Position numbers and translations under genes: made by a program
NCBI GenBank assembly: GCA_937864925.1
Contig: CALMFH010000154.1
Location: forward strand, 1-64,000
DNA: 64,000 nucleotides
Reading direction: 5' to 3'
Source: an uncultured Alphaproteobacteria bacterium
Lineage (GTDB): Bacteria > Pseudomonadota > Alphaproteobacteria > Rhizobiales > Ancalomicrobiaceae
Shown: piece by piece, positions 15,501 to 39,501 of the stretch
Layout of the letters: each line of letters starts with the position of its first letter
Numbering within the stretch: position 1 is the stretch's first letter
Notes under the pieces: generated by a model
The model's input: only the letters and a program-made list of their open reading frames with translations
What the model was told of the DNA's origin: nothing
Databases searched by the model: none

Positions 15501-17251
<1,751 letters not shown>

Positions 17252-17255
<4 letters not shown>

Positions 17256-19255: not shown

Positions 19256-19256
19256 G

Positions 19257-21766: not shown

Positions 21767-22197
21767 CGGCCAAACCTCTCGCGCCCCGGCCGATCCGTCA
21801 CCTGCGGAGCCCACGAATTCCGAACTCGCCCGGAACACACCGGAGCGGCGGCCCCGAGCGGCCGCCATCCGTTAGGATCTGCGCCGGGGGGCGGGGCTTC
21901 GAGCCGACCGTTTCTTTCCCTTCGTCCGTCATCCGCAGCTTCGTCGGGTCACGGCGAACGATACAATGCGACAGAGCGGTGCGCGACGGCTTTACACGGC
22001 GGGCGGCATCGGACGCGGTCGACGATGGTGGCGGCGGCGCAGGTGACCTATACAGGATGCCACCACGACGAAGGAGAGGTCACCACCGTGGCCGCGTTTC
22101 CGCCGCCTCCATCCTCACGATCGACGCGCCCGGTCCGCCTTCTGGAGGTATCGGTGCCGTGGGGCGAGCCGGGCGGCGCGTCACCCGGAGGGCGCCG
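21767..22197. promoter_or_regulatory. Divergent intergenic region between ATP-grasp and glycosyltransferase genes
   Basis: These 431 bases contain no gene I can support. Promoters for both flanking genes must lie here. The frame upstream of the glycosyltransferase is open from 21979, but it lacks any family similarity. The ribosome site GGAGG at 22187-22191 fits the start at 22198. No clear operator was seen. Confidence 0.4.
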
Positions 22198-24742: not shown

Positions 24743-25041
24743 CACGAGCCGCGCCGTTCTGCGGGGATGAAGGAGATCAGCGTGTCGATCAGATCACCGA
24801 CGGTCTCGAATTTGGCATCCGGTGTCAGATCGATCTCGACGTCGAACTCCTCCTCGATGGCGAAGACGACGTTGACCACGTCGATCGAGTCGATCGCCAC
24901 CTCGTCACGCCGGGTGTCGCGGGTCAGGACCACCGACTTGTCCTGAATCTCCTTCTGGATGAAGGCGATGATCCGGCTTTCGACATCCGACGCCTGTCCG
25001 TCCGTCTGCTTCACGGTCGCGCGTGCCGCCATGTCCGACAT
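24742..25041 (-). CDS. Acyl carrier protein, module 1
   Basis: The 99-residue protein carries the phosphopantetheine motif at S52 (EVAIDSIDVVNVVFAIEEEF) within a four-helix ACP fold; a 20-residue N-terminal extension precedes it. It is the first gene of the ACP-ketosynthase pair and is transcribed away from the serine-palmitoyltransferase-like gene. In Caulobacter an ACP gene lies next to the serine palmitoyltransferase gene and is needed for ceramide synthesis, so this ACP may deliver the acyl chain to the PLP enzyme. The ATG at 25041 follows GAGG at 10 bases spacing; an ATG at 25032 is an alternative. Confidence 0.9.
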   Translation of the reverse strand: MSDMAARATVKQTDGQASDVESRIIAFIQKEIQDKSVVLTRDTRRDEVAIDSIDVVNVVFAIEEEFDVEIDLTPDAKFETVGDLIDTLISFIPAERRGS

Positions 25042-25482
25042 GTATTCATACCCTCGGGCGCCCCGGACGTCCCCGTCGCCTTCGGCCGCAGTCGCGGGGT
25101 GGACGGAACGAGGACGTGCCCCTTCCGGCGTGTTTCGCCGGATGAAGATCGTGTCGTGCCGCGTATCACGAACCGGTCGCCCCGTGAAGGGAAGTTGGTG
25201 AAATTCCTCATGGTCTTCCGGGTCGGTGACCGCGGAGATGCGCTGTCTCCGCGTGTTCTGCGGCGTGTCGTCGATCGAAGGTCGAAGCGGCTCCGGCGAT
25301 GGCGCGAGCCGTAGGACTGCGAGGGTGACCGGGGGCCGAGGCCGCGATATATACGGCTTATCCGCCGCGGAAGGGTGGCCACGGAGCGACGGCGCCGGAC
25401 GCATCGTCGAAGTGGGGCCTTCCGAGCCGTGACAGGAAGCCGCGCCCGACCTTCGCCGTATCGATCAGCCGATCAGGTGGTC
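25042..25482. promoter_or_regulatory. Divergent promoter region between ACP/ketosynthase and PLP-enzyme operons, with a perfect hairpin
   Basis: These 441 bases separate the two divergent operons and contain no supportable gene. A perfect 8-bp inverted repeat, CGCGGAGA (25231-25238) and TCTCCGCG (25246-25253), lies near the middle and may be a regulator site or an RNA hairpin in a 5' leader. The AT-rich GATATATACGG at about 25345-25356 is a candidate -10 region for the rightward operon. Confidence 0.45.
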
Positions 25483-26670
25483 ATGCCCTCGCTCACTCCC
25501 TTCGAAACCTTCGTGAAGCGACGGGCGCGGCTCGCCGGCCAGTTCTTCCTCGAGGGGCTGGGGAACGCCAATCCCTGGTTCGTCCAGGTCGACGGCCTGC
25601 AGGAGGTGGTGGAGGCGCGCGGCGATCGGTTCGTCAGTTTCGGCAATTACGACTATCTCGGACTGTCGCATCATCCGGCGGTGCGCGAGGCGGCGATCGC
25701 GGCGGTGCGGGAGCACGGCACCGGTGTCAACGGCTCGCGTCTGGTCGGCGGTGAGCGCAATTTCCACCGCGCCTTCGAAGCCGAACTCGCCGATTTCGTC
25801 GGTGCGGAGGCGGCGGTGACGCTGGTCAGCGGCTATCTCACCAACCTGTCTCTGATCCCGCATCTTCTCGGCGGCGACGACCTTCTGATGGTCGACCAGC
25901 TCGCTCACAACAGCATCATGATGGGCGCCCGCTCCACCCGCGCGACGGTCAAGAGCTTCCGCCACAACGATCTCGATCACCTCGATCACCTGCTCGGCGA
26001 GTCTCGGGCGAAGCATCGCAACTGTCTGGTCGCGGTCGAGAGCCTCTACAGCATGGACGGCGACCACGTCGATCTGCCGCGCCTCCTCGACCTTCGGGAC
26101 CGACATGGCTGCTGGGTGATGGTCGACGAGGCGCATTCCTTCGGCGTCATGGGGGCGACCGGGCGCGGCATCTCGGAGCACTACGGCGAGGACCCCCGAC
26201 GTATCGACCTGATCATCGGCACGCTGTCGAAGACGCTCGCCTCCTCCGGCGGCTTCGTCTGTGCGCACGGTCTGGCGATCGAATGGCTACGCTTCACGCT
26301 GCCGGGCTTCGTCTACAGCGTCGGCCTGTCGCCGGCGGTCACGGCCGGGGCACATGCCGCCTTGACGGCGTTGAAGGCCGAACCGGAGCGCGTGGCGCGT
26401 CTCGGGGCCAATTCCCGGATGTTCGTCGCCAAGGCTCGGGCCGCCGGGCTCGACACCGGCGCGGCGACGGGTTGCGCCATCGTTCCGGTGCTCTTCTCCG
26501 ACTTCGGCACCACCCTCGACAAGGCCGCGGCGCTGTTGCGGGAGGGGATCTACGCTCCACCGGTGGTCCAGATCGGCGTGCCGCAGGACGCACCACGCAT
26601 CCGCTTCTTCCTGTCGGCCGATCACACCGAAGCCGACATCGACCACGCCATCCGCGTCCTGGCGGCGTGA
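25483..26670 (+). CDS. Alpha-oxoamine synthase family PLP enzyme, probable serine palmitoyltransferase
   Basis: The 395-residue fold-type I aminotransferase-like protein belongs to the alpha-oxoamine synthases (SPT, KAPA synthase, KBL, ALAS). The PLP lysine is K250 in GTLSKTLASSGG; D215 and H218 in VDEAHSFG bind the PLP ring, and H142 stacks on it. FGNYDYLGLSHHP and GSRLVGGERNFH are typical substrate-side blocks. SPT condenses serine with an acyl thioester to 3-ketosphinganine. BioF is the main alternative, but no biotin genes are near, whereas a ketosphinganine-reductase-like SDR (33962-34792) and an ACP are. The start ATG at 25483 is weakly supported by AGG upstream. Transcribed with the kinase and CDP-alcohol transferase genes downstream. 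Confidence 0.82.
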   Translation: MPSLTPFETFVKRRARLAGQFFLEGLGNANPWFVQVDGLQEVVEARGDRFVSFGNYDYLGLSHHPAVREAAIAAVREHGTGVNGSRLVGGERNFHRAFEAELADFVGAEAAVTLVSGYLTNLSLIPHLLGGDDLLMVDQLAHNSIMMGARSTRATVKSFRHNDLDHLDHLLGESRAKHRNCLVAVESLYSMDGDHVDLPRLLDLRDRHGCWVMVDEAHSFGVMGATGRGISEHYGEDPRRIDLIIGTLSKTLASSGGFVCAHGLAIEWLRFTLPGFVYSVGLSPAVTAGAHAALTALKAEPERVARLGANSRMFVAKARAAGLDTGAATGCAIVPVLFSDFGTTLDKAAALLREGIYAPPVVQIGVPQDAPRIRFFLSADHTEADIDHAIRVLAA

Positions 26671-26790
26671 TCCCCACGCAGTGTGGCATCTCGCCGGGGC
26701 GACGTGACCGACCTGCCGCCGGCCGGAACTTGCACGGCTCGGGCGCGACGGCGTAGAAACGGCTCGCGAAACGACGGCGGAACCGAAACG

Positions 26791-28401
26791 GTGGACACAC
26801 GACGAGCCCCGGAGGGAGGGGCGCCGACCTACGTTCTGACCGCGGATTTCGGCACCGGCGGCGTCAAGGTCGGGATCGTCGATCGCACCTCCACGCTCGT
26901 CGCCGTCACCGTCGAACACTATCCGCTGGCGCGGCCGGCACCGATGCACGCCGAGCAACGGCCGAGCGACTGGTGGTCGGCCTTCGTGCGCGCGGTCGGC
27001 GACCTCCGGGTACGTGTGCCGGATCTGGCGGAACGGATCGGCGCCATCGCGTTCTCGGCTCAGATGTGCGGTGTGGTCTGCGTCGACGGCACCGGCCACC
27101 CGTTGCGTCCCGCGATCATCTGGCTCGACAAGCGTGCGGCCGACATCACCGGCACGATCGTCGGCGGCTTCCCCGCTTTCTACGGTTACAACATCCCGAA
27201 GGCGATCGCCTGGCTCACCATCGCCAACGGCGGACCGCCACGGAACGGCATGGACCCACCGAGCAAGATGGCCTGGGTGAGGGCGCACGAGCCGGAGATC
27301 TGGGCGGCGACGGCCAAGATCCTCGACGTGCGCGACTGGCTCGTTCACCGCGCCGTCGGCCGTTTCGTCACCACGGCGGACACCGCCAACCTCACCTGGC
27401 TGATGGACACGCGACCGGGACGCGAGGGCTGGTCGGAACGGCTGTGCGGCTTCGTCGGCGTACCGCGCGACCTCCTTCCCGAGATCGTCGACGGTGCCGA
27501 CGTCGTCGGCGGGCTGACGGCGCGGGCCGCCGCCGAACTCGATCTGCCGCAGGGCGTGCCGGTGGTCGCCGGTTGCGGCGACGTGACGGCGACGGCGCTC
27601 GGATCGGGCGCGGTCGAACATGGCGAACTGCACGTCTGTGCCGGCACCAGCTCCTGGGTCGGCGGCTTCTTTCCCGATCGCAGAGTCAGCCCGCGCCATT
27701 CCTACGCGACGGTCGCCAGCCCGGTGCGATACCGGCCGTTGTTGATCGCCACCCAGGAGATCTGCGGTGGGGCCTTCCACTGGGCGAGCGAACTGCTCGC
27801 CGGGCACGGCGGCCATCGGGAAGAGGACATCGGCGCCTTCCTGGCGAGCGCCGCGAAGCGCGATCTCGACGATCCGCTGTTTCTCCCCTGGCTCGCCGGC
27901 GAGCGCTGTCCGATCGACGATCACCGATTGCGCGGCACGCTTCTCGGTCTCCGCTTCGGTCACACACGGGAGACGGTGATCCGTGCGGTGATCGACGGAA
28001 CCGTGCTCAACCTGTGTTGGGCTCTGGAGGTGGTCGGACGGGAACGCGGCGTCCGCCACGATCCCCCGCTGTCTCTGGTCGGTGGCGTCGGTCAGAGTCC
28101 GGATTTCGCTCAGGCACTCGCCGACGCGACCGGGCGCACCGTGGTGGTGTCGACGCCGCGGTTCGCCGGCCTGATCGGGGCCGCGGCTTTCGCCGCGCCG
28201 GCGTTGGGCTGGGCACCCGATCCGCTCGCGGCGATCCGTGCCGCGGTGAGATCGGATCGGCGGGAGTATCGTCCCGATCCGCGCGAGAAGCGGTTCTTCG
28301 ATCTGCGCCGGGCCGAATTCGCCGCGGCGCGACGGTGGGTGGTGCCGTGGTCGCGTCAGCGGTATGCCGGGACGAACGGTTTCGGAGGGGGCGGACCATG
28401 A
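26791..28401 (+). CDS. FGGY-family carbohydrate/polyol kinase
   Basis: The 536-residue protein has the actin-like ATPase fold of FGGY kinases: an N-terminal phosphate loop LTADFGTGGVKVGIVD (about 14-29), IIWLDKRAADI, the second phosphate block CGDVTATALGSGAVEHGELHVCAGTSSWVGG, and the adenosine motif LVGGVGQSPDFAQALADATG near the C-terminus. Members phosphorylate xylulose, glycerol, ribulose and other polyols; the substrate here is unknown. Its stop overlaps the start of the CDP-alcohol phosphatidyltransferase (ATGA, 28398-28401), so the kinase may make the phosphorylated head group used by that enzyme, possibly inositol or another polyol phosphate. I chose the GTG at 26791; the frame is open to 26683 but that part is not conserved in character. 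Confidence 0.83.
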   Translation: MDTRRAPEGGAPTYVLTADFGTGGVKVGIVDRTSTLVAVTVEHYPLARPAPMHAEQRPSDWWSAFVRAVGDLRVRVPDLAERIGAIAFSAQMCGVVCVDGTGHPLRPAIIWLDKRAADITGTIVGGFPAFYGYNIPKAIAWLTIANGGPPRNGMDPPSKMAWVRAHEPEIWAATAKILDVRDWLVHRAVGRFVTTADTANLTWLMDTRPGREGWSERLCGFVGVPRDLLPEIVDGADVVGGLTARAAAELDLPQGVPVVAGCGDVTATALGSGAVEHGELHVCAGTSSWVGGFFPDRRVSPRHSYATVASPVRYRPLLIATQEICGGAFHWASELLAGHGGHREEDIGAFLASAAKRDLDDPLFLPWLAGERCPIDDHRLRGTLLGLRFGHTRETVIRAVIDGTVLNLCWALEVVGRERGVRHDPPLSLVGGVGQSPDFAQALADATGRTVVVSTPRFAGLIGAAAFAAPALGWAPDPLAAIRAAVRSDRREYRPDPREKRFFDLRRAEFAAARRWVVPWSRQRYAGTNGFGGGGP

Positions 28402-29066
28402 TCGACGGCCTGTTCAAGACCCACATCGATCCGATGTGGGAGCGGCTCGCCCGGCCTCTGGCCTCGGCCGGGTTGACCCCCAATCAGGTGACGTTGATCG
28501 GGCTCGTCCTGGTAGCGGTGAACGTCGCCGCCTTCTCGGTGCATCGATCGGTGGCCGTCCTCGGCCTGGGCCTGGTGGTCGCATTCGCCTTCGACGCGCT
28601 GGACGGCGCGGTGGCGCGGATCCGGGGGCTGTCGACCCGGCGCGGCGGCTATCTCGACGCGGTCGTCGACCGCTACCAGGAACTGGCGATGATGGCCGCA
28701 CTCGGTTGGGCGAGCGAGGCCTGGCCGGCGGCATTGCTCGGGCTGGCCGGGGCCTACCTGACGAGCTACGCCAAGGCACGGACCGCGATCGAGATCCCGG
28801 TCGACAACGACCGTTGGCCAGACCTCTTCGAGCGACAGGAGCGGATCATTTTTCTCTGCGCGCTGATGATCCTCGCCGGGGCAGCGTTCGGCCCGATGGG
28901 GCTCGAGCGGCCGGTGTTGGTCGGCGGACTGTGGCTCTATGCCGCGCTGACCAATTTCACGGCTCTCCAGCGGGCGGCGCGGGCCTGGGAGATGCTGCGC
29001 CGGGTCGACGAGAGCGATCCCCTGCCGCCCCGCCGGCCGCGCCCGGCCGATGAGGGCCGGGTCTGA
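28398..29066 (+). CDS. CDP-alcohol phosphatidyltransferase, candidate phosphatidylinositol-phosphate synthase
   Basis: The 222-residue membrane protein has the complete CDP-alcohol phosphatidyltransferase signature: D66-x2-D69-G70-x2-A73-R74-x8-G83-x3-D87-x3-D91, with the four aspartates that bind the two metal ions. About six hydrophobic segments follow the family pattern. These enzymes move a CDP-activated lipid phosphate to an alcohol such as glycerol-3-phosphate, serine or inositol-3-phosphate. With inositol-3-phosphate synthase (34797-35900) and a CdsA-like gene in the locus, transfer to inositol-3-phosphate, as by mycobacterial PgsA1, is the favoured guess; the head group cannot be read from sequence. 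Translationally coupled to the FGGY kinase. Confidence 0.88.
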   Translation: MIDGLFKTHIDPMWERLARPLASAGLTPNQVTLIGLVLVAVNVAAFSVHRSVAVLGLGLVVAFAFDALDGAVARIRGLSTRRGGYLDAVVDRYQELAMMAALGWASEAWPAALLGLAGAYLTSYAKARTAIEIPVDNDRWPDLFERQERIIFLCALMILAGAAFGPMGLERPVLVGGLWLYAALTNFTALQRAARAWEMLRRVDESDPLPPRRPRPADEGRV

Positions 29067-29083: not shown

Positions 29084-29920
29084 TCAGGAGACCGGGTTGA
29101 GGGCCACGGCCTCCTCGGCCACCGCATCCGCCGCCACGCCCGCCCGCCCGCCGGCACGGCCACGCAGGAAACGGGCGACATCGACGAAATACGCCGAGAG
29201 ATAGGCGAGGAAGACCAGGATCAGGATGGTCTCGAGCTCGACGTAGGCGGTGATCACCCAAGGGGTCAGGACGCCGAGATCCATCGACTTCACCCGGAAG
29301 ATCACGCCGTAGGCGACCGCGGCGGCGACCACGGCATAACCGGCCCGCGCTCGCCAACGCGCCGGGAAGAAGGCGGCCTCGAGCGGGGTGCGTGCCGGGG
29401 CGATCAACGCGTGATAGACGGCGGCGAGCAGGATCGTCGCCGCCTGACCGCCGAAGAACACGTAACTGCCGAGCATGTGCAGTCGGTTGGTCGCAACTTC
29501 GCCGCCGAGCCGGTATTGGGCGAGCATCACCATGCCGACGCAGGTCGCGGTCATGGTCGCCCACATCGCCGGCCAAAGGCCGCGAGCGATGCGGTCGCGG
29601 GTCGGCGCGAGAGCCGTACGACGAGGATGCTCGGCGATGAACATCCACAGGATCGAATGGACGGAGGCCCACAGGATGGCCGCGGCGAGCGTCACCCAGA
29701 CCGCGAAGGGCTCGCCGACGCGCGGATCGGAGATGGCGCGGCTGATCGTCAGATAGATGCGCGGATCGGCGTCGGGATGAAGCTGGTGGAAGGTGTAGCG
29801 CGCCCACAGGATGGCGGGCACGACGATCACCGGCACCGTGACGATGCCGAACACGGGCAGGAAGGCGATCCACGGGCGTGACGAGCGATCGCGCAGCCGG
29901 GTCGGGTGAACCTTCGCCAT
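29084..29920 (-). CDS. Six-TM membrane protein resembling the Frag1/DRAM/Sfk1 family
   Basis: The 278-residue protein has about six membrane segments (near residues 18-42, 68-92, 108-130, 143-165, 183-203 and 214-238). The spacing and some residues, such as ISRAISDPRVGEPFAVWVTLAAAILW after the first segment, HMLGSYVFFGGQAATILL and YVELETILILVFLAYLSAYF, recall the Frag1/DRAM/Sfk1 family. Eukaryotic members act on GPI-anchor lipid remodelling (PGAP2) and plasma-membrane phosphoinositide or lipid asymmetry (Sfk1). The match is by eye and tentative. The ATG at 29920 was preferred to a GTG at 29956. It converges on the CDP-alcohol transferase gene (17 bases between stops) and follows the LptF/G-like pair, 220 bases downstream of it. 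Confidence 0.6.
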   Translation of the reverse strand: MAKVHPTRLRDRSSRPWIAFLPVFGIVTVPVIVVPAILWARYTFHQLHPDADPRIYLTISRAISDPRVGEPFAVWVTLAAAILWASVHSILWMFIAEHPRRTALAPTRDRIARGLWPAMWATMTATCVGMVMLAQYRLGGEVATNRLHMLGSYVFFGGQAATILLAAVYHALIAPARTPLEAAFFPARWRARAGYAVVAAAVAYGVIFRVKSMDLGVLTPWVITAYVELETILILVFLAYLSAYFVDVARFLRGRAGGRAGVAADAVAEEAVALNPVS

Positions 29921-30140
29921 TCTTCGCCGTTCTCTTTTCCATCGTCGGCATGTCACCGCGTCGCGGCGACACGCCCTTCCCGATTAGAACAGGGCATCGA
30001 GCCTGTCCAGCGCCGGGGCCGTCCGGTACGACCGGCCTCGCTCCTCCGACCGAAGCCGGGAGGTGACGAGCTCATGTCGCGCCCGTGGGCGCCGCCGTGC
30101 CTCGGCCGCGGAAGTGGCTCCGTCGATCGCGTCGCGTCGC

Positions 30141-31325
30141 TCAAGCTCGCCACCGGCGCCCGGCCGCCGCCGTGACGGCGATGACCACGCCGCCGAGCGC
30201 GACGGCGATCGGGATCCAGGCGGCGGCGAACGGGGTCAGGATCTTCAGTTCGCCGGCGGCGATGAAGACGCGGATCGCGACGTGGATGGAATACCCGGCG
30301 AAGACGCATCCCGCCAACACCGGCAGGCTCGGCCGGCGGGCACCTGCGAGCAGCGAAACGCTCGCCGCGAGCAGCGCCATCGCCAGCGGCATCAACGTGT
30401 TGGCGCGTCTCACCTCGAGCCAGACGTGGTGATCGGCGCCGACCAGCATGTCGGTGCCGGAGGCGACGATGGTCCGCAGATCGTTCTCCGGAATGTATTT
30501 CGCCGGGACCCCCATGTAGGTGACGGCGAGCGGATGCAGCGGGATGGTGAGAACCTCCTCGCCCGGTTGTTTCGAGACCCGCATCGCCGACGGCGAGGCG
30601 GGATCGCGGCTCCAGTGGGTGGCGTCGCGGAAACGCCAGACGTCGCGCTCCCCGGTCGGATCGGCGCGCGTGGCGCGGATCACCTCGCCCACCCGCCCCA
30701 TCGCGTCGAGCCGGTAGATGTCGACGTCGACCAACTCGGCGGGCGGACCGAAGCGGGCGTCGGCGTGGACCAGACGGTCGCCGGACATGAACCACACCGG
30801 GCTCGGCGGTCGCTCGCGGGCGTAGCGTTCGCCGTAGGCGCCGAGTTTGGCGGCGGCCTGTATCAGCACCGCCTCCGGCCGCCAACGGGTCTCCAGCACG
30901 AATTGGAGCGGCGCCAGCGTCAGGCCGACGGCGAGTGCCGGCATCAGAACACGCAACGGATGGCGACCGGAGATCCAGTGGATGGCACGACGGCGGGTGA
31001 GGATCGACCATAGTTCGAAGGCGAGTACGCCGACGAAGACGGCGATCGACAGCAACCGGGTCACCATGTCGACGATGCGCAGACCGAGATACCAGGCGAG
31101 CAGGGCGGCGCGATCGAACGCGCTACCGCCCGCCGCCGAGGTCACCTGATCGAAATAGCGGGCGAGGTCGATCGAGATGGCGACGAGCAGCAGCACCAGT
31201 TGCACGATGACGACGAACAACAGATGCCCGCGATAATCCTGCCGCGCCATGATGCCCGGCAGCCCGAAGGGGTGGAAGAGTCCGCGGCGGTGGGGATGGG
31301 CGGGGGAGGGCGCGAGATCGGTCAC
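30141..31325 (-). CDS. LptF/LptG-family (YjgP/YjgQ) lipid-export permease, second gene
   Basis: The 394-residue protein has the LptF/G plan: three N-terminal membrane segments (about 28-48, 75-105, 118-140), a large periplasmic beta domain (about 150-290) and three C-terminal segments (about 300-390), here ANTLMPLAMALLAASVSLLAG, LPVLAGCVFAGYSIHVAIRVF and PFAAAWIPIAVALGG. LptF and LptG form the transmembrane part of the exporter that pushes lipopolysaccharide to the LptA bridge, with LptB as ATPase. It starts with GTG inside the stop of the upstream gene (GTGA, 31322-31325), so the two are co-translated. It is the more diverged of the pair. The usual lptF/lptG neighbours (pepA or lptD) are absent, so a role in exporting another lipid is likely. 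Confidence 0.8.
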   Translation of the reverse strand: MTDLAPSPAHPHRRGLFHPFGLPGIMARQDYRGHLLFVVIVQLVLLLVAISIDLARYFDQVTSAAGGSAFDRAALLAWYLGLRIVDMVTRLLSIAVFVGVLAFELWSILTRRRAIHWISGRHPLRVLMPALAVGLTLAPLQFVLETRWRPEAVLIQAAAKLGAYGERYARERPPSPVWFMSGDRLVHADARFGPPAELVDVDIYRLDAMGRVGEVIRATRADPTGERDVWRFRDATHWSRDPASPSAMRVSKQPGEEVLTIPLHPLAVTYMGVPAKYIPENDLRTIVASGTDMLVGADHHVWLEVRRANTLMPLAMALLAASVSLLAGARRPSLPVLAGCVFAGYSIHVAIRVFIAAGELKILTPFAAAWIPIAVALGGVVIAVTAAAGRRWRA

Positions 31326-32473
31326 GAGCGACCTCCGCGCGGTGCCACCACGCCGGGATAGCGCCACACCAGCGCCGCGGCGAGGACGACGAGGAGGCAG
31401 GTGACCGCCGCGGCGCCCTGGGCGAGGCCGGTGGTGGCGCCGGTGGCGCCGAAGCTGCGCACCATGCGGACCAGGGCGAGGTCGAACACCACCATCGTCG
31501 CGCCGGCGATCGGCAAGGCGAAGAAGCGACGGCGACCGTCGGCGAAGGAGACGGCGATCGCCGCCATCAACACCGCGGCGAGTGACAGCCAGGCGCGGGT
31601 GATGATCTCGGCGGCACGCAGGCCCTGAGCCTTGCGCGCGGCCTCGCTCACCGCCGTCCGCACCAGGGCGACGAGATTGCGGTATTCCGGCAGGTCGGCG
31701 AGGGCGGGTTCGCGCAGTGCCTTGTCGAGGTCGATGTCGCGAGCGACGGTTCCGAGCCGGAAGCCGGAGCCGCCGAGTGGCGGATTCTCGGCATCGTCGA
31801 GTTGCGGAGCCCTGAGCGCGAGATCGGAGACGGTGACATCGCGCAGGCGCAGGTGGTAGCGGCGCTCGCTCTCGATCTCCGTCAGTTCGTAGTCGGTGGC
31901 GGCGACGATCCGTTCCATCCCGTCGGCGCGGGGCAGGAAGACCAGGAGGCGGCGGCCTTCGGAGTTCCCCGAACTCGGCGAGACGAAGGTGTAACCGTTC
32001 AGCGTCTCGACCTTGTCACGGGAGAGCCCGTTGCGGACCGCCTCCAGCACCATCTTGCGGCCGGCGTCGAGGAACAAACGGTCGCGGGTGGCGCGAGCGA
32101 GCGGGTCGATCCAGCCGGCGACGAAGACGACGCCGACGACCGCCACGACACCGAAGCCGATCAGGCTCTTCATCAGGCCCCAGGGGCCGACCCCGGCGCC
32201 GGCCAGCACCACCGTCTCGCCGCCGTCGCGGGCGTCGAGGAGGGCCCTGAAGATACCGATCAGCAGGGCCAGGGGCATCGCGGTGATGACGATCTCGGGC
32301 GCGGTCAGGGCCAGCACCAGCGGCAGGTCGGAGAGCGGCGCGTCGCGCTTGATCAGCATCTCGACCAGGGTGGTCAACCGCTCCGCCAGGAAAACGACCA
32401 GCACGAGGCCGAGCGTCGCGCCCAGCGCTCCGAGACAGCGTCGGATCAGATGGAGACCATAGGTCCGCGCCAT
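31322..32473 (-). CDS. LptF/LptG-family (YjgP/YjgQ) lipid-export permease, first gene
   Basis: The 383-residue protein is a clear LptF/G-family permease. The N-terminal part MARTYGLHLIRRCLGALGAT leads into the first membrane segment, followed by LALTAPEIVITAMPLALLIGIFRALLDARDGGETVVLAGAGVGPW, which carries the coupling-helix region that contacts LptB (E in GGETVVL). A periplasmic beta-jellyroll-like domain (about 135-270) precedes three C-terminal segments. It is transcribed from a short 85-base divergent region shared with the PgpA-like gene and is translationally coupled to the next permease gene. No LptB-like ATPase is encoded with it; the chromosomal LptB would have to be shared. Context suggests transport of the lipid built by this locus. 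Confidence 0.88.
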   Translation of the reverse strand: MARTYGLHLIRRCLGALGATLGLVLVVFLAERLTTLVEMLIKRDAPLSDLPLVLALTAPEIVITAMPLALLIGIFRALLDARDGGETVVLAGAGVGPWGLMKSLIGFGVVAVVGVVFVAGWIDPLARATRDRLFLDAGRKMVLEAVRNGLSRDKVETLNGYTFVSPSSGNSEGRRLLVFLPRADGMERIVAATDYELTEIESERRYHLRLRDVTVSDLALRAPQLDDAENPPLGGSGFRLGTVARDIDLDKALREPALADLPEYRNLVALVRTAVSEAARKAQGLRAAEIITRAWLSLAAVLMAAIAVSFADGRRRFFALPIAGATMVVFDLALVRMVRSFGATGATTGLAQGAAAVTCLLVVLAAALVWRYPGVVAPRGGRS

Positions 32474-32558
32474 GCCCGCGCAGCCTCTCGAGGCGAGGGA
32501 ACACCGAACGTCGATCGTCGCCCGACCGGACTCGTCCGCGGACGTGGAATCATATCTG

Positions 32559-33074
32559 ATGGCGGCCATGGTCAAAAGTGTCGAAGCCACCGTCCGTCCG
32601 ACCATGCGTTTCGTCTGGTCGCACCCCGCGCACGTCGTTTCGTTCTCCGCCGGCCTCGGCCTTGCGCCGGGTTGGCCTGGAACCGTCGGCGCGGCGGGTG
32701 CCGTCGTGCCGGCGTGGCTGCTCCTCGGGCTCGGTTGGGCGTGGCTCGCGCCGATCTTCGTCGCCACCTTCGCGCTCGGGGTGTGGGCGGCCGACGTCAC
32801 CGAGCGGGCGCTCGGGGTCGACGACCCGGGCTGTGTGGTCTTCGACGAGACCTGGGCGATGGCGCTGGTCTTCCTGGCGATCCCGGTCGATCCGTGGTGG
32901 TGGCTCGCCGGCTTCGCCGCCTTCCGCTTCTTCGATATCGTCAAGCCGCAGCCGATCCGGGCGGTGCAGGACGGTTTCGCGGGTGGGCTCGGCGTGATGG
33001 CCGACGATTTTGCCGCGGCGATCGCCTCGATCGCCGTCGTCGATGCCGTCGCTTGGGCGCTCGGGCGGATCTGA
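32559..33074 (+). CDS. PgpA-like lipid phosphatase (phosphatidylglycerophosphatase A family)
   Basis: The 171-residue protein aligns with E. coli PgpA over its length: FSAGLGLAPGWPGTVG (about 29-44), VDDPGCVVFDETWAMALVFLAIP (about 88-110), FRFFDIVKPQPIR (about 122-134) and GGLGVMADDFAAAIA (about 142-156). The paired acidic residues D88-D89, D96-E97 and D149-D150 of the active site are kept, but the usual DEFIGM stretch reads DETWAM. PgpA removes the terminal phosphate from phosphatidylglycerol-phosphate; here it may dephosphorylate phosphatidylinositol-phosphate (or its ceramide equivalent), the step after the CDP-alcohol transferase. The start is one of two close ATGs (32559 or 32568). It converges with the CdsA-like gene (6 bases between stops). 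Confidence 0.83.
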   Translation: MAAMVKSVEATVRPTMRFVWSHPAHVVSFSAGLGLAPGWPGTVGAAGAVVPAWLLLGLGWAWLAPIFVATFALGVWAADVTERALGVDDPGCVVFDETWAMALVFLAIPVDPWWWLAGFAAFRFFDIVKPQPIRAVQDGFAGGLGVMADDFAAAIASIAVVDAVAWALGRI

Positions 33075-33080
33075 GATCGT

Positions 33081-33965
33081 TCAGACGACCGACGTCACCA
33101 CGGCGAGGGCCGGGGCGGTGACGATCCAGGCGTCGGCGATGTCGAGGACGCCGCCCTGAACGGCATGGATCGGCGGAAAGTCCTTCACCCCGGCGCGGCG
33201 CTTCAGCCACGACGCGACGAGATCGCCGGCGACGGTCGTGACCGCGGAGCTCGCGGTGACGACGAGGATGCGGCCGAGCGACCAACCCATGACGGCGAAC
33301 CCGAGCACCGCCGTGGCGGTGGCGACGGCGGTGGCCCCGGCGACGAGGCCCTCCACCGTCTTGCGCGGGCTGAGCCGGGGAAATGCCTTGTGACGGCCGA
33401 ACAGGCGGCCACCGAGGACGGCGGCGCTGTCCATCGTCTCCACCAGCAGGAAGGCGAGAAGCAGCACCGCGCCGCCGCCGGGACGCGCCGCCACCAGGGC
33501 GAAGGCGGTCACCGCGGCGAGCGGAAAGGCGAAGAGCACGACGGCATCGGCCGGACGTGGCGGCGGAACGAGGCGGACCGCGGCCGCCGTCGCGATGGCG
33601 GAAAGCAGCAGCCCGGCGGCGACACCACTGACACCGGCGACCGTCGCGAGGATCGCCGCCGCCGCCGCCGTACCGCCGAGACCGAGCGCCACGGTCGGCC
33701 GATCGCCGCCGGGCGCGAGGACGACGCTCGCCGCCTCGAAGCCGCAACGCCCGGCGAGAAGTGCGACTCCCGTCGCGGTGACGACGCCCCCCGGCACCAC
33801 GAAACCGAGGGCGACGGCGACGATGACGATCTCCGAGATCATCACCGGCCACAATCCGCGCGCCTTTTCGGCGGTCACCGGCACGAGCGACAGAAACCCG
33901 ACGAGCACGAGGGCGACCGCGACGAAAACCCCGACGAGCAGGGCGAGGGCGGTCATCTCGGTCAT
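33081..33965 (-). CDS. Phosphatidate cytidylyltransferase (CdsA)-like protein with altered signature
   Basis: The 294-residue membrane protein has about eight hydrophobic segments and the CdsA blocks GGRLFGRHKAFPRLSPRKTVEG (about 185-206) and a C-terminal signature beginning SWLKRRAGVKDFPPIHAVQGG (about 252-272) and ending VLDIAD. In canonical CdsA the final part reads HGGxxDRxD; here Q270 stands for the histidine and DI for DR. CdsA makes CDP-diacylglycerol from phosphatidic acid and CTP. The changes suggest a different lipid phosphate, for example ceramide phosphate, or a non-housekeeping role. It is the third gene of the operon inositol-3-phosphate synthase, SDR, CdsA-like; its ATG overlaps the SDR stop (ATGA, 33962-33965). 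Confidence 0.83.
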   Translation of the reverse strand: MTEMTALALLVGVFVAVALVLVGFLSLVPVTAEKARGLWPVMISEIVIVAVALGFVVPGGVVTATGVALLAGRCGFEAASVVLAPGGDRPTVALGLGGTAAAAAILATVAGVSGVAAGLLLSAIATAAAVRLVPPPRPADAVVLFAFPLAAVTAFALVAARPGGGAVLLLAFLLVETMDSAAVLGGRLFGRHKAFPRLSPRKTVEGLVAGATAVATATAVLGFAVMGWSLGRILVVTASSAVTTVAGDLVASWLKRRAGVKDFPPIHAVQGGVLDIADAWIVTAPALAVVTSVV

Positions 33966-34792
33966 GGGCGACGCCGGTCGAACGATCGGACGATACGGCG
34001 CTGGTGCCAGCGCAGCAGCGGCGCGACCAGCGAATGGAGCCGGGCGAGCACGGTCAGGGTGAACCCGGGCGCCACCAGGAAGCGCCCGGCGAGCGCCGCG
34101 TCGATCGTCGCCTTCGCCACCGCCTCGGCCGACCACACGCCGCTGCCGGCGGTGATCGCCTTGGTCGCCTCCGGCTTCGTCCGCGTCTCCGCGGCGAGCT
34201 GAGGCGTTTCGGTGTCGGGCGGGTAGGCCAGGGTCACCGTGATGTCGTCACCGGCGAGTTCGACCCGCAGAACCTCGGCGAGGCCGCGAACGGCGAATTT
34301 CGACGGGGCATAGGCGGCATAGCCGTAGATGCCGAAGAGGCCGGCGCCGGAGGAGACGAGGACGATCCGGCCACCGCCGCCGGCGCGCATCGACGGAACG
34401 ACGGCGTGAACGGCGGCGAGAGTTCCCAGATAGTTGATCTCCATGTGGGTGCGATGGGCATCGAGGGGCTGCTCGACGAAGAGGCCGGGCTCGGCGATGC
34501 CGGCGGACGCGACGAGCCAGGCGATCGGGCCGTACTCGGTCGCGATCGCCGCGATCACGGCAGCGAGGGCGGCGGGATCGCGGACGTCGACGGCGTGGGA
34601 CGAGACCACGGCACCGGGGATCGCCGCCCGGATCTCGGCCGCCGCGTCGGCGAGGACGTCGGGGCGCCGGGCGAGAAGGGCGACGGGATGGCCGAGGCGG
34701 GCGAGACGCAGCGCTGCGGCCCGTCCGATGCCGCTCGAGCCGCCGGTGACGACGGCCGGCCCCGGACGGGTGTCGGTCGCGTCGGCCGCCAT
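33962..34792 (-). CDS. Short-chain dehydrogenase resembling 3-ketodihydrosphingosine reductase (KDSR)
   Basis: The 276-residue SDR has TGGSSGIG (16-23) for NAD(P)H, the serine pair S147-S148, and the catalytic Y161-x3-K165 in YAPSKFAVRGLAE. Its C-terminal half carries YPPDTETP at 190-197 followed by ETRTKPEATKAI; the near-identical string YPPDTDTP with downstream ENRTKP is the hallmark of eukaryotic KDSR (FVT1/Tsc10), which reduces 3-ketosphinganine to sphinganine. A hydrophobic C-terminal stretch (FTLTVLARLHSLVAPLLRW) ends in a basic tail, also as in KDSR, which is membrane-bound. It lies 4 bases after inositol-3-phosphate synthase and overlaps the CdsA-like gene. This is the strongest single sign that the locus makes sphingolipids. 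Confidence 0.87.
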   Translation of the reverse strand: MAADATDTRPGPAVVTGGSSGIGRAAALRLARLGHPVALLARRPDVLADAAAEIRAAIPGAVVSSHAVDVRDPAALAAVIAAIATEYGPIAWLVASAGIAEPGLFVEQPLDAHRTHMEINYLGTLAAVHAVVPSMRAGGGGRIVLVSSGAGLFGIYGYAAYAPSKFAVRGLAEVLRVELAGDDITVTLAYPPDTETPQLAAETRTKPEATKAITAGSGVWSAEAVAKATIDAALAGRFLVAPGFTLTVLARLHSLVAPLLRWHQRRIVRSFDRRRP

Positions 34793-34796
34793 CGCC

Positions 34797-35900
34797 TCAA
34801 TCCTCGGGTTCGCCGTTCGCGAAATTCAGCATGGTCTCGAGGCCGGCCTCGTCGTCCACCTGCATCGGCGGGTGCTTGAACAGGAAGCTCGCCACCGAGC
34901 CGAGATCGCCCGAAAGGCCGCGGTCCCTGGCGATCTTGGCGAGGCGGATGGCGATCAGGGCCATCGCGGCGGCGTTGGGTGAATCCTCGACCGAGACGCG
35001 CGCCTCGATGTCCATGCGCACCCCGCCGAACAGGCGTCCCTCGAGCCGGATGTAGGCGATCTTGTTGTCGTTCAGCCACGGCACGTAGTCGGACGGGCCG
35101 ATCCGGATCTGCTGATCCTCGAGGCGGTCGACCATGGCCGTCTGCACCGCTTCGGTCTTCGACAGGCGCTTGGTCAGCAGCCGGTCGTGATCCATCATGT
35201 TGAGGAAGTCGGTGTTGCCGCCGACGTTCAACTGATAGGTGCGGTCCATCTTGACGCCGCGCATGTCGAAGAGGTGCGACAGGGTGCGGTGGACGATGGT
35301 GGCGCCCATCTGCGCTTTGAAGTCGTCGCCGAGCACCGGCACCCCGCCGGCGCGGAACTTCGCCGACCACTTCGGATCGCTGGCGATCAGCACCGGAATG
35401 CCGTTGACCAGCGCGCAGCCCGCTTCGATGGCGCACGAGGCATAGAATTCGACCGCTTCCTGCGACCCGACCGGGAGGAAGTTGATCATCACCTCGACCT
35501 CGCGCTCGCGCAGATGGGCGACGATCGCGGCGCGGTCCAGGGCTGGGGCGTCGGAGACGACGAAGGAGCGTTCGGCCATCTGATTGCGCATGAAGGCGGA
35601 GACGCCGTCGAGATCGGGGCCGCGTTGCACCGTCACCCCGGTCTTCGGCACGTCGCGGTGGAAGACCGCGGTGCAGTTCGGCGCCCGGAAGATCGCCTCC
35701 GAAATGTCGAGCCCGACCTTGCGGGCATCGACGTCGAAGGCGGCGACGATCTCGATGTCGCCGGGCCGCCATCCGCCGAGAACCGGGAAGGGCACGCCGA
35801 TGGCCGCCTCGCCCTCGGCGCGGCAATAGGCCACGCCCTGCACCAGCGAGCTGGCGCAGTTCCCGAGACCGACGATGGCGGTACGAATTCTCCGCGACAT
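34797..35900 (-). CDS. ino1: Inositol-3-phosphate synthase (myo-inositol-1-phosphate synthase)
   Basis: The 367-residue protein is an Ino1/MIPS of the compact prokaryotic type. It converts glucose-6-phosphate to myo-inositol-3-phosphate with bound NAD+. Motifs: VGLGNCASSLVQGV (10-23) for NAD, NFLPVGSQEAVEFY, NGIPVLIASDPKW (166-178), the catalytic block GDDFKAQMGATIVHR (191-205) and GGNTDFLNMMD (227-237). The ATG at 35900 follows AGGAA; the longer frame to 35990 is not needed. It is first in an operon with the KDSR-like and CdsA-like genes. MIPS is usual in Actinobacteria and Archaea but uncommon in Proteobacteria, and this one links inositol supply directly to lipid genes. Confidence 0.95.
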   Translation of the reverse strand: MSRRIRTAIVGLGNCASSLVQGVAYCRAEGEAAIGVPFPVLGGWRPGDIEIVAAFDVDARKVGLDISEAIFRAPNCTAVFHRDVPKTGVTVQRGPDLDGVSAFMRNQMAERSFVVSDAPALDRAAIVAHLREREVEVMINFLPVGSQEAVEFYASCAIEAGCALVNGIPVLIASDPKWSAKFRAGGVPVLGDDFKAQMGATIVHRTLSHLFDMRGVKMDRTYQLNVGGNTDFLNMMDHDRLLTKRLSKTEAVQTAMVDRLEDQQIRIGPSDYVPWLNDNKIAYIRLEGRLFGGVRMDIEARVSVEDSPNAAAMALIAIRLAKIARDRGLSGDLGSVASFLFKHPPMQVDDEAGLETMLNFANGEPED

Positions 35901-36202
35901 GGCTGTTCCTCGACAGGTCTGCGTCCGTCGTTCCACACGCCCGCGGGCTTCATCGGCCGTCGCCGCGGCTCGTGGGATCCGCCGGTTCAATAGCCTCGTC
36001 GACGTCCACAGGGAAGCCGTCGGGTGCGGAATTACGGATGGTGAGGGGCGTTACGGACGTCGGACGCGCCGGTTCGCCGCCGCATCGGGCCGATTTCGGT
36101 GGCGATCGGTCGCATTCCGGCGGGGCGAATACCTTGTCAATGCCGGCTTTCGGGATGAAGATCCCGTCTCCGGAAAGCCCTCGCCAGGGACGTCACACCA
36201 CC
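35901..36202. promoter_or_regulatory. Divergent promoter region between inositol-3-phosphate synthase and DUF4833-like gene
   Basis: This 302-base region contains no supportable gene. The heptamer TTACGGA occurs twice as a direct repeat, at 36032-36038 and 36051-36057, 19 bases apart, near two helical turns; it may be a regulator half-site pair. No match to the IolR-type motif found in region 57.9-60.0 kb was seen here. Confidence 0.4.
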
Positions 36203-36865
36203 ATGATCGGCTCGTCGCATACGCCGTCGACCTCGTCGCCGAGCGGCCCTTCATGCTTCATCCCGTCTCGTCGTTTCGTTCTCGGTCTGGCACTCGCCGC
36301 TGTAGGTGGAACCGGTCTCGTCGGTCGAGCGCGGGCCGAACCGCAGATCGTCCTGCCGAAGATGCGCTCCGAGTTCCAGACCTTCGCCGATCTGCCGGTC
36401 GTGCGGCCACAGCACGTGCCGCAGGACGAGGGGATGCTGTTCTACGTGCAGCATTCGATCAACGCCAACGTCATCGTCTATGCCGCCCGGCGCGGCGCCG
36501 ACGGCCGATTGGACCCGCGCGATCCGATCGAGGTGTTCTGGCGACGCTACGCCTCCACGGGACGCCGGCGCGAACTCAGTTTCTTCGAGCGCGTGTTCGC
36601 TTTCGGCGTCTCGGCGCTGCCGGTCGGCGACGGACGTTGGTCGGTCGGCCTCGTGAGTTTCCAGGAGCGTGAAGGTTCGCTCGACATGGGGCCGGACGGC
36701 AAGCCGCGCCTGCTGGTGCCGGTCGACAAGCGGCCGATGCGGCCGGTCTACGTCTACGCGGAGGCCATCGCCGGGACCTTCATCCCGACCATCCGCCACA
36801 TCGATCTCTTCGCCGCGATCGACGGCGAGAAGGGGTATCTGCGCGAGCGCGTTCACTTCGGTTGA
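36203..36865 (+). CDS. DUF4833-like exported protein with Tat-type signal
   Basis: The 220-residue protein begins with a twin-arginine-type signal: SRRFVLGLALAAVGG, followed by a cleavage site near RARA-EP (about residue 46). The mature part resembles DUF4833: MLFYVQHSINANVIVYAARRGADGRLD, PIEVFWRRYASTGRRRELSFFERVFAFGV and, at the end, RHIDLFAAIDGEKGYLRERVHF. The family has no established function. Secretion by Tat would place the folded protein in the periplasm or at the membrane. It is divergent from inositol-3-phosphate synthase and 189 bases ahead of the ABC exporter on the same strand, so it probably takes part in handling or moving the lipid product. Start choice is moderately sure. Confidence 0.7.
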   Translation: MIGSSHTPSTSSPSGPSCFIPSRRFVLGLALAAVGGTGLVGRARAEPQIVLPKMRSEFQTFADLPVVRPQHVPQDEGMLFYVQHSINANVIVYAARRGADGRLDPRDPIEVFWRRYASTGRRRELSFFERVFAFGVSALPVGDGRWSVGLVSFQEREGSLDMGPDGKPRLLVPVDKRPMRPVYVYAEAIAGTFIPTIRHIDLFAAIDGEKGYLRERVHFG

Positions 36866-37054
36866 GTGCGAACTGCGTGTCTCGGAGCGGCGGAGGCCGG
36901 TGCCGGCCGCCGGCCGCGTCCTTTTTCGGCTCGCCTCGACCGCGTCGTGCCTGTATGAGAGCGGGCGCCGGGCCGGCAGGGGGCCTCCGGGCCGGCGCCG
37001 GGACGACGGATGCACCGTGGCATCCGCTGCCGGACGCGTCGCCGAGGGGGGCCG

Positions 37055-38707
37055 ATGTTCGGGAAGATGTTCTCCTTCCTGTGGCGCAACGCGCCGAAGG
37101 GGATGGCGTTACCGGTGATCGGCTTGGCGATCGTCACCGGTCTGTCGCGCAACGTCCTCCTCCACGTCATCAACGCCGCGGCGAGCGACGTGGGCACTCC
37201 CGGCTTCTTCCGCCTGTGGTTGCCGGTGTTCCTGGCGACGCTCGTCGTCTATGCCGTGCTGAGCGTGGTCTATCCGGTGATGGCGCAGTCGCTGGTGGCG
37301 CGGATGGCGGCGACGCTCCGGGCGCGGCTGACGCGCAACATGTTGAAGGCGCCGCCGCTCTTCGTCCAGAGCCACGAGCACGGCGGACTCTACCACATCA
37401 TCACCACCGACGTTCAGGTGGTGACCGCGATCAGCCGTACCATCATCGAAATCCTGCCGGCGGTGATCTTCCTCGTCCTGGCGACGCCGCAGGTGCTGGC
37501 GCTGTCGCCGGCGGTCGGTGGCTTCGCGCTTCTGGTGATGGTCGGTGGTATCCTCGGCTACTACCTGCAGCGGCGTGCCATTTCCGGGCTGACGAAGCTC
37601 ATCCGCTCGGTCGAGATCGACTACTTCGAGCGCGTGTCCGACATCATCGGTGGTTTCCGCGAACTGAAGCTGCACCGCCCGCGGCGGCGCGACCTCGAGG
37701 ACGAGATCGCTCATACCGTCGACGAGATCCGCGACGTCACCATCCGCATGGAACAGCGCTACGCCGCCAGCGAAGTGGTGATGCAGTCGCTGAAGTTCGT
37801 CCTGGTCGGCGGCATCGTCTTCATCGTACCCTGGCTCGGGGTCGGCGACAGCACCGTCGTCTTCCAGTTGCTCACCGTGGTGCTGTTCTCGCTCGGCCCG
37901 TTCGAAGGGGTGATCAAACAGATCCCGGCGCTGCTCCGAGCGATGGTGTCGTTCCGCCGCATCGACGAACTCGATGCCGAACTGAAACAGTTCGAGGGCC
38001 TGGACGAGGGCGATCGGCCGCCACCGGGACCATTCTCTCGGCTCTCTCTCGAAGGGGTGCGTGCGCGCTATCCGCTCACCGACGGCTCCGGTTTCGAACT
38101 CGGGCCGCTCGATTTCGAACTGTCGCGCGGCGAGATCGTCCTCGTCATCGGCGACAACGGGTCGGGCAAGACGACGTTCCTCAACGTCCTGGCCGGTCTC
38201 CTCGACATCGACGACGGCCGCATCACCGTCGACGGTACACCGGTCGAGGACCGCGACATGGTCGCCTACCGCGACCGTTTCTCCGCCATCTTCACCGTCT
38301 TCCACCTGTTCTACCGGCTGTTCGGCCTCTCCAGGATCGACCCCGACCATGCCCGCAGCTTGTTGAAGCGGCTGCAGCTCGACGAGGTCACCGACTATGC
38401 CGAGGGTCGCTTCACCCAGTTGAATCTCTCCTCGGGCCAGCGTCGGCGACTGGCGCTGGCGGTGGTGCTGCTCGAGAACCGCGACATCGTCATCCTCGAC
38501 GAGTTCGTCGCCGATCAGGATCCGGGCAAGCGTGAGTTCTTCTTCCGCACCCTGCTGCCGGAACTGAAGGCGGCGGGTAAGACGGTGGTCGTCACCACCC
38601 ACGACCTCGCCTGGGTGCCGTTCTGCGACCGGGTGGTGCGCTTCTCGGGCGGCCGCATCGTCGCGATCGAACGACCGACGGTCGACGAGACCGCGCTCAC
38701 GGACTGA
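37055..38707 (+). CDS. ABC exporter, fused membrane and ATPase domains (PvdE/SyrD-like)
   Basis: The 550-residue half-transporter has six membrane segments in residues 1-300 (for instance ALPVIGLAIVTGL, LVVYAVLSVVYPVMAQSLV, IIEILPAVIFLVLA) and an ATPase domain in 330-550 with Walker A GDNGSGKT (366-373), signature LSSGQRRR (458-465) and Walker B VILDE (479-483). The string DEFVADQDPGKREFFFRTLLPELK after Walker B is typical of the cyclic-peptide/siderophore exporter branch (PvdE, SyrD), which moves amphipathic products out of the cytoplasm. Here it may flip or export the lipid of this locus. The ATG at 37055 follows GAGGGG. Its stop lies 4 bases from the convergent MaoC gene. Confidence 0.9.
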   Translation: MFGKMFSFLWRNAPKGMALPVIGLAIVTGLSRNVLLHVINAAASDVGTPGFFRLWLPVFLATLVVYAVLSVVYPVMAQSLVARMAATLRARLTRNMLKAPPLFVQSHEHGGLYHIITTDVQVVTAISRTIIEILPAVIFLVLATPQVLALSPAVGGFALLVMVGGILGYYLQRRAISGLTKLIRSVEIDYFERVSDIIGGFRELKLHRPRRRDLEDEIAHTVDEIRDVTIRMEQRYAASEVVMQSLKFVLVGGIVFIVPWLGVGDSTVVFQLLTVVLFSLGPFEGVIKQIPALLRAMVSFRRIDELDAELKQFEGLDEGDRPPPGPFSRLSLEGVRARYPLTDGSGFELGPLDFELSRGEIVLVIGDNGSGKTTFLNVLAGLLDIDDGRITVDGTPVEDRDMVAYRDRFSAIFTVFHLFYRLFGLSRIDPDHARSLLKRLQLDEVTDYAEGRFTQLNLSSGQRRRLALAVVLLENRDIVILDEFVADQDPGKREFFFRTLLPELKAAGKTVVVTTHDLAWVPFCDRVVRFSGGRIVAIERPTVDETALTD

Positions 38708-39497: not shown

Positions 39498-39501
39498 GAT
39501 C

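Follow-up and report, generated by a model that had tools for sequence, protein, structure and literature searches.

The systems closest to the one treated here are described in three bacteria. In the canonical lipopolysaccharide (LPS) exporter LptB2FG of Escherichia coli, a coupling-helix glutamate in each permease (LptF E84 and LptG E88) matters for working with LptB; according to excerpts of the same article, the exchange E88A in LptG is tolerated with defects, the exchange E88R is lethal, and mutations at LptB R91 suppress this (PMC5082905). In Caulobacter crescentus, LptC2, LptF2 and LptG2 (CC_1168, CC_1156 and CC_1155) have been proposed as a phosphosphingolipid exporter, on the basis of mutant cofitness and with no further investigation in that article (Olea-Ozuna 2024, PMC11324152). 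In Bacteroides thetaiotaomicron, excerpts of Heaver 2022 (PMC9246714) report that deletion of the myo-inositol-1-phosphate synthase (MIPS) BT_1526, of the CDP-alcohol phosphatidylinositol-phosphate (PIP) synthase BT_1523 or of the PgpA-family phosphatase BT_1525 each abolishes the phosphatidylinositol (PI) lipids, and that complementation succeeded for BT_1523 and BT_1525 and failed for BT_1526. Here we analyse a divergent LptF/LptG pair found at positions 30141 to 32473 of a stretch of 64,000 nucleotides (the window, G000:C154:1-64000, where G, C and L designate genomes, contigs and locus stretches). The window comes from a Siculibacillus-like bacterium (genome of 4.15 Mb, 290 contigs, 97% complete), whose closest genus-named relative is Siculibacillus sp. 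MAG9 (L012; Ancalomicrobiaceae, Hyphomicrobiales). With a probability of roughly 60%, we propose that this pair forms the membrane-spanning part of a non-LPS ABC transporter of the LptB2FG type, which would most likely carry the inositol-phosphate lipid made by the surrounding gene cluster, probably built on a sphingoid (ceramide-like) anchor.

The LptF-like gene (31325..32473) and the LptG-like gene (30141..31328) are co-directional on the minus strand, with a GTGA stop/start overlap at 31325-31328. At the matching site the overlap is GTGA in L011 and TTGA in L012. Both products match the Pfam family PF03739 (LptF_LptG, cutoff 27.9) over nearly the full length of its 353 positions, with 72.0 bits for 30141-31367 (profile positions 9-347) and 67.9 bits for 31322-32473 (positions 2-353). 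They stay under the NCBIfam equivalog cutoffs TIGR04407 and TIGR04408 (74.0 bits for a cutoff of 230 in the LptF-like protein, 87.6 for 240 in the LptG-like protein). The coupling-helix glutamate is present in the LptF-like protein (E86) and its site is occupied by Arg113 in the LptG-like protein. The initial annotation had described a co-translated LptF/LptG-family pair amid lipid enzymes, which these data confirm; it had also taken the second gene as the more diverged, and on this point the profile scores show no clear difference, though the LptG-like coupling helix is unusual. The AlphaFold models of both proteins are too poor for use (mean pLDDT of 41 and 45), and at this confidence their secondary structure fits three helices, a periplasmic beta domain and three helices.

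A canonical LPS export set is encoded elsewhere in the same genome. Contig C183 carries, in this order, pepA (divergent), lptF, lptG, lptD and a surA-like gene, and its LptFG pair reaches 209 bits per gene with the Pfam profile and clears both NCBIfam cutoffs (234.6 and 285.6). One LptC-family match (PF06835) and one LptA-like match are adjacent on C169, where the single LptB is also located (288.6 bits, the runner-up ATPase being at 144.5 bits). The single LptD is on C183 and LpxC is present. An LPS export set is therefore present without the window pair, which is a paralogue of the canonical LptFG, as had been suspected; that it could be the only LptFG of the genome is ruled out by the C183 pair. 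A third LptFG-like match, on C283, was rejected because it is an FtsX/MacB permease.

The distribution of the pair was determined in two sets of genomes, the first of 101 relatives (the own genome and members of its genus, family and order) and the second of 387 genomes sampled from the class. A profile of the LptG-like protein detected 11 of the relatives with at least 143 bits, and the next match, at 50.8 bits, leaves a clean gap. A wider profile exceeded 200 bits in the own genome and in G118 only among the 387 class genomes, followed by a match at 116, and the plasmid records searched gave no match. Each of the 12 carriers holds exactly two LptFG pairs above the Pfam cutoff. Gene content was then counted by tblastn at E 1e-5 in the stretches read around the divergent pair (contig ends cut three of them, L011, L050 and L046). 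LptD and PepA have no match in any of the 12 stretches, the window included. Taken with the positions of LptC, LptA-like and LptB on C169 and of LptD on C183, this bears out the earlier remark that no lptD, pepA or lptA/B/C gene lies near the pair.

Phylogenetic trees were computed with FastTree (93 and 127 sequences) and with IQ-TREE (60 LptG rows and 50 LptF rows, each with 5 outgroup sequences). The LptF tree was restricted to sequences spanning at least 250 residues and to matches of at least 25 bits; the span limit removed ten sequences (8 SPT-type, 1 unknown, 1 canonical), so that serine palmitoyltransferase (SPT)-type rows number 15 in the LptF tree and 23 in the LptG tree. Rows labelled UNK, mostly duplicates of genomes kept under other labels, were excluded from the IQ-TREE trees, the topology test and the residue counts. 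SPT-type labels come from gene context and the FastTree of 127 sequences. Among 20 fetched LptFG places, one is of the window type and four have LptD and PepA; the other 15 include 8 with an SPT match, 13 with a GNAT match and one with neither. Eight further places (L152-L159) have both SPT and GNAT in six cases and neither in two. For each subunit, the trees give three sets: LPS-type, SPT-linked, and a third one that contains the window pair and that we call INO-type. The INO-type clade is supported by values of 100/100 in both IQ-TREE trees and lies apart from all LptD-linked pairs. The supports of the LPS-type and SPT-linked sets are of 48/46 and 71/68 for LptG, and of 90/84 and 99/97 for LptF. 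In the tree of pairs that the initial annotation had called for, the divergent pairs are thus a single clade separate from the LPS-type, and by this placement the window pair is a separate, third LptFG class. An approximately unbiased (AU) test on LptG gave p 0.62 for the union of INO-type and SPT-linked sequences; this constrained tree scores 5.19 log units above the free tree, which indicates that the free search missed it. The union of INO-type and LPS-type sequences is not rejected either (p 0.25). The INO-type and SPT-linked classes may therefore share a sphingolipid-linked ancestor, or may not.

The membership of the pair in the LptF/LptG family, the presence of LptB in the cell and that of LpxC in 9 of the 11 carriers among the relatives would suit a spare or specialised LPS exporter, serving for example a variant lipid A or particular growth conditions. 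The separation of the INO-type clade from all LptD-linked pairs, the inositol and/or sphingoid-lipid genes around the pair in the 12 carriers and the absence of LptD and PepA matches from all 12 stretches point elsewhere, and so do two genomes. LpxC, the sole lpx gene searched (PF03331, E 1e-3), has no match in 15 of the 101 relatives (G018, G028, G036, G049, G050, G051, G060, G064, G068, G075, G079, G081, G090, G091 and G100), seven of which are at 99-100% completeness. In two of these, G050 (98% complete, 8% contaminated) and G091 (99% complete, 4% contaminated), an LPS-type pair was looked for and is missing; both hold an SPT-linked pair and an INO-type pair. Having neither an LpxC match nor an LPS-type LptFG, these two bacteria are very unlikely to export LPS with their INO-type pair, and we regard an LPS-exporting role of this class as very improbable. 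LptD is kept in 12 of the 15 LpxC-negative genomes, and the SPT-linked LptFG is found in the 9 of the 15 (G050 and G091 among them) whose pair type was worked out; in two of the nine, G028 and G036, the stretch read has no SPT or GNAT match. The SPT-linked type also occurs together with LpxC, in G020 and G070. It may be that these LpxC-negative relatives are Hyphomicrobiales without lipid A, which are coated with sphingolipids and continue to use LptD.

The motor of a non-LPS exporter of this class would be LptB. Three carriers have a second LptB gene near the pair, at a distance of about 2 kb in G033 and in G078 and of about 7 kb in G005 (locus L175), between the pair and the SPT-like gene. 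These second LptB proteins are 56-60% identical to the LptB of the own genome, and each of the three genomes also keeps an LptB that is 80-83% identical. The second LptB of G033 passes the LptB cutoff of TIGR04406 (326.8 for 240). The other nine carriers have one LptB each (E 1e-50 or better), except G050, where a second LptB piece (78%) at a contig edge may be contamination. The extra LptB in three cluster regions, with a single LptB elsewhere, supports an LptB-driven machine whose LptB would be borrowed in most carriers, including the window's bacterium. Borrowing of LptB had been suggested in the initial annotation; the single LptB of the own genome fits it, and the arginine in the LptG-like coupling helix speaks against borrowing in its simple form.

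The coupling-helix glutamate is conserved in all 12 LptF-like proteins. At the corresponding site of the LptG-like proteins, glutamate is found in six carriers, arginine in four (the window, L011, L012 and G013), histidine in one and glutamine in one, while the LptG of the LPS-type (24/24) and of the SPT-linked class (23/23) always have glutamate (E. coli is excluded from these counts). The carriers with a second LptB are different from those with arginine, so the change from glutamate to arginine is not accounted for by a dedicated LptB. Either the LptG-like side works differently or the change is evidence against simple borrowing. The LptB stretch IFRG is present in 13 of 15 sequences (the own one and 14 loci; L170 and L175 were not read and L172 was left out). 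Residue counts at the cavity positions (LptG 34, 40, 41, 136 and 301; LptF 33 and, as we assume, LptF 30, 212 and 223) reveal no clear pattern, LptG 34 being Asp almost throughout the alphaproteobacterial rows, whatever their class. The residues K34, K40, K41, R136 and R301 of LptG and R33 of LptF are given in PMC6744409, with LptG R301 as the nucleotide-contacting arginine. Arginine at the R301 position is found in 0 of 12 INO-type sequences, compared with 24/24 and 21/23 in the other classes; since an Arg or Lys is located no more than four residues away in each of the 12, this may be an alignment shift, and a loss of R301 is not claimed.

A change that is lethal in E. coli LptG as E88R (excerpts of PMC5082905) might suggest that the pair no longer exports, and that it has come to assist the synthesis enzymes in a structural or regulatory role, or retrieves lipids inwards. 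The retention of the glutamate in every LptF-like protein and in half of the LptG-like ones, the additional LptB that three carriers have in their cluster region, and the good conservation of both sequences (identities to L011 and L012 of 78% and 72% for the LptG-like protein, of 77% and 75% for the LptF-like protein) speak against this alternative, which we hold to be quite improbable.

The genes around the pair recur in the 12 carriers, though not always as a full set. Matches to the short-chain dehydrogenase (SDR) occur in 11 of the 12 stretches, to the SPT-like enzyme, INO1 and PgpA in 10 each, to the ketoacyl synthase (KS), the CTP transferase and the DUF4833 protein in 9 each, and to the CDP-alcohol enzyme, the FGGY kinase and the GT4 glycosyltransferase in 8 each; weaker GT4 matches were found by blastp in L043, L044 and L046. 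The FGGY kinase and the inositol-type CDP-alcohol gene co-occur in 8 of the 12 carriers. INO1 is present in 24 of the 101 relatives, including 10 of the 11 carriers (Fisher p 1e-6), and DUF4833 in 13, namely 9 of the 11 carriers and 4 of the 90 others (Fisher p 2e-8), both values being uncorrected for kinship. The tie to an inositol or sphingolipid product, as first put forward, is upheld as far as gene content goes: the pair is associated with inositol and/or sphingoid-lipid genes in 12 genomes.

In the window, the inositol genes flank the pair. The INO1/MIPS gene (34797..35990, minus strand) matches PF01658 with 115.7 bits (cutoff 27) and TIGR03450 with 399.6, under the cutoff of 638. The CDP-alcohol phosphotransferase gene (28398..29053, plus strand; PF01066, 51.4 bits for a cutoff of 22) was missed by the composition-based gene call and was found as an open reading frame (ORF) with the family motif DxxDGxxAR...GxxxDxxxD. 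Its product scores best with archaetidylinositol-phosphate synthase (124.5, cutoff 180), then with PIP synthase (78.0, cutoff 170) and the BT1523 type (57.9), and reaches only 21.1 and 19.7 bits with the PgsA models. It overlaps by ATGA the gene of an FGGY-family kinase (26683..28401, plus strand; PF00370/PF02782). A PgpA-family phosphatase gene (32472..33074, plus strand; PF04608, 113 bits) is divergent from the lptF-like gene, and its start is uncertain, probably about 90 bases further in. MIPS, the CDP-alcohol transferase and the PgpA-type phosphatase are all above their Pfam cutoffs, the inositol assignment of the second resting on best matches under the NCBIfam cutoffs. With the Bacteroides deletion phenotypes, these three enzymes make an inositol headgroup of the cluster lipid a well-grounded prediction by analogy. 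A CTP_transf_1 (CdsA-like) protein (33081..34136, minus strand; PF01148, 112.9 bits) is a candidate maker of the CDP-activated lipid, and a GT4 glycosyltransferase (21979..23370, plus strand; PF13692/PF00534) is a candidate for headgroup glycosylation.

For the anchor, the central enzyme is an alpha-oxoamine synthase (25375..26670, plus strand; PF00155, GTLSK motif) that is nearest to SPT. An SDR (33962..34792, minus strand; PF00106) is a candidate 3-ketosphinganine reductase. A KS (23528..24745, minus strand; PF00109/PF02801) and an acyl carrier protein (ACP; 24742..25404, minus strand; PF00550) precede the synthase gene; the ACP ORF is probably overlong at its 5' end, its homologues in L011 and L012 having 99 residues (73% and 71%). 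Further along the window are a MaoC-like dehydratase (38712..39719, minus strand; PF01575), a second KS (39502..40716, minus strand; PF00109/PF02801), a second ACP (40713..41075, minus strand; PF00550) and a PlsC-type acyltransferase (41305..42075, plus strand; PF01553) that is a candidate N- or O-acyl transferase. A fused permease and ATPase of the ABC exporter type (37010..38707, plus strand; PF00005/PF00664) is a candidate flippase, and its best NCBIfam match is a cyclic-peptide export family (277.7, cutoff 286.2). A membrane protein (29084..29956, minus strand) has no Pfam match, and its homologue in L012 shows a weak similarity to Frag1/DRAM/Sfk1 (23.5 bits for a cutoff of 30.3). The DUF4833 protein (35972..36865, plus strand; PF16117, 83 bits) has a Tat-like signal (SRRFVLG...); it is probably periplasmic and may act in the periplasm. 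A comparison with LptC and LptA, of which it might be a hidden form, found no similarity to either protein, and its sole PDB match is at E 0.58. No mention of DUF4833 was found in the open-licence PubMed Central papers searched. A second DUF4833 gene, outside the cluster, is present in G050 (C49:52514-52927). Just ahead of the cluster, at 15495-20567, an AMP-binding enzyme gene is followed by E1 and E2 genes of a 2-oxoacid dehydrogenase, which might supply acyl starters.

Another product of the locus could be the cargo: a glycerol-based phosphatidylinositol (possibly glycosylated), or else a lipid that the alpha-oxoamine synthase makes, of the acyl-amino-acid or polyketide-like kind. The CdsA-like, CDP-alcohol and PgpA-like enzymes suit ordinary PI chemistry, and the synthase is not cleanly an SPT. 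In G091, an ORF of 2209 amino acids resembling polyketide synthases (L049, 10637-17266) lies between the LptG-like and the SPT-like genes, and there a polyketide synthase may be the source of the lipid chain. Against such a cargo, the PDB entries that match the synthase best are SPTs (204.9 bits), the cluster of G033 holds a closer SPT (467 bits for a cutoff of 500), and the cluster of G050 has a fatty acid desaturase (L045, 12159-13265) that weakly resembles sphingolipid Delta4-desaturases (PF08557, 20.3 bits for a cutoff of 23). A cargo of this kind is unlikely in our view, and a sphingoid anchor is probable only.

Several observations weigh against an export machine for inositol-headed sphingolipids. 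The SPT-like enzyme of the window passes none of the three NCBIfam SPT cutoffs (287.9 for 500, 286.6 for 640 and 208.2 for 670) and is almost equally close to KBL (197.2 bits with PDB entries, the next kind after SPT), so the lipid may have a different anchor. No SPT-like match is found in the stretches read of G013, which is on a short contig, and of G050, where none of three stretches around the INO-type pair has one and a single match is located at the other pair (C30). In G005, whose genome is 86% complete, the pair is present and INO1 is absent. In G033, G078 and G005, tblastn gave no match to the CDP-alcohol, CTP, FGGY or GT4 enzymes of the window, hence the headgroup chemistry there differs or uses other enzymes. 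These three have a GNAT-type gene and the second LptB near the pair, and the CDP-alcohol/FGGY/GT4 set is present in 8 of the remaining 9 carriers, the contig of G013 being short. The GNAT-type gene is presumably 'CerS-like'; one of the GNAT-type proteins matches PF00583, and those of L043 and L155 match no Pfam family. The arginine of the window LptG-like protein, at a site where E. coli LptG needs glutamate, speaks against simple LptB borrowing in this genus. Lastly, the searches yielded no LptC, LptA or LptD specific to the pair, and the route past the inner membrane is a guess.

With these points in mind, the proposed export of an inositol-headed lipid can be outlined as follows. The KS and ACP, the SPT-like enzyme and the SDR would build the sphingoid base, and an acyltransferase would complete the anchor, as their families suggest. 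By analogy with BT_1523, BT_1525 and BT_1526 of Bacteroides, INO1 would supply inositol phosphate, the CTP transferase would activate the lipid, the CDP-alcohol enzyme would join lipid and inositol phosphate, and PgpA would strip the extra phosphate. The head might be glycosylated by the GT4 enzyme, and flipping of the lipid could fall to the fused ABC exporter. The LptF/LptG-like pair would then extract it from the inner membrane, powered here by the single LptB, and would hand it towards the outer membrane through an Lpt-type bridge common with LPS; sharing of the bridge is suggested by the single LptC-family, LptA-like and LptD matches of the own genome. The cargo, the direction, the use of LptB, the shared bridge and LptD are thus what we infer from gene content and protein families.

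More broadly, these data suggest that, in some bacteria, inositol-headed, probably sphingoid lipids are placed on the surface by an Lpt-type machine of their own. We give about even odds to a fuller picture, that of a third LptB2FG-type class for inositol-headed sphingolipids, with an altered LptG coupling helix and sometimes its own LptB, working even in Hyphomicrobiales without lipid A, where SPT-linked and INO-type exporters would build the outer leaflet via the retained LptD. A distinct LptFG class at an inositol-lipid cluster is a second testable case beside Caulobacter. The genomes that lack LpxC and hold LptD with such pairs allow one to ask, as a natural experiment, if the Lpt bridge serves glycolipids in general or LPS only. 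The change from glutamate to arginine in the LptG coupling helix, reported as lethal in E. coli in the excerpts of PMC5082905, poses a sharp biochemical question.

Compared with the canonical LptB2FG of E. coli and of C183, the window pair has in common the Pfam family, the co-translated order of F then G and the coupling-helix glutamate of LptF. It differs by a Pfam score of about one third (72 and 68 versus 209 bits), by NCBIfam scores far under the cutoffs that the C183 pair passes, by the absence of lptD and pepA neighbours in the INO-type and by the replacement of the LptG-like glutamate in 6 of 12 carriers. With the Bacteroides cluster BT_1522-1526, the window shares the grouping of MIPS, a CDP-alcohol PIP synthase and a PgpA-type phosphatase; LptFG is unmentioned in the accessible text of PMC9246714. 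The CDP-alcohol enzyme of the window scores higher with the archaetidylinositol type (124.5 bits) than with the BT1523 type (57.9 bits), and no AUR1-like phosphoinositol dihydroceramide synthase was identified in the window, although no search was aimed at one. No paper on an inositol-linked LptFG class was found among the matches listed in the open-licence PubMed Central literature. The Caulobacter system is likewise a second LptFG pair inside a sphingolipid cluster for which an Lpt-like export to the outer membrane has been proposed; the main text of PMC11324152 contains neither 'inositol' nor 'Hyphomicrobiales'. In contrast to LptC2, the single PF06835 match of the own genome sits on C169 beside the LptA-like and LptB genes, with no dedicated LptC2. 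Those pairs of Alphaproteobacteria that have SPT and a GNAT-type gene as neighbours, and that stand for the Caulobacter type by its described setting and not by its sequences, fall in another set of the trees. A Caulobacter-type LptF2G2 was therefore rejected as the simplest reading of the window pair, which has its own clade apart from the SPT/GNAT-linked pairs. A second LptFG set for sphingolipids is thus already in print as the Caulobacter proposal, and the window pair is, from its position in the trees, a different, third class.

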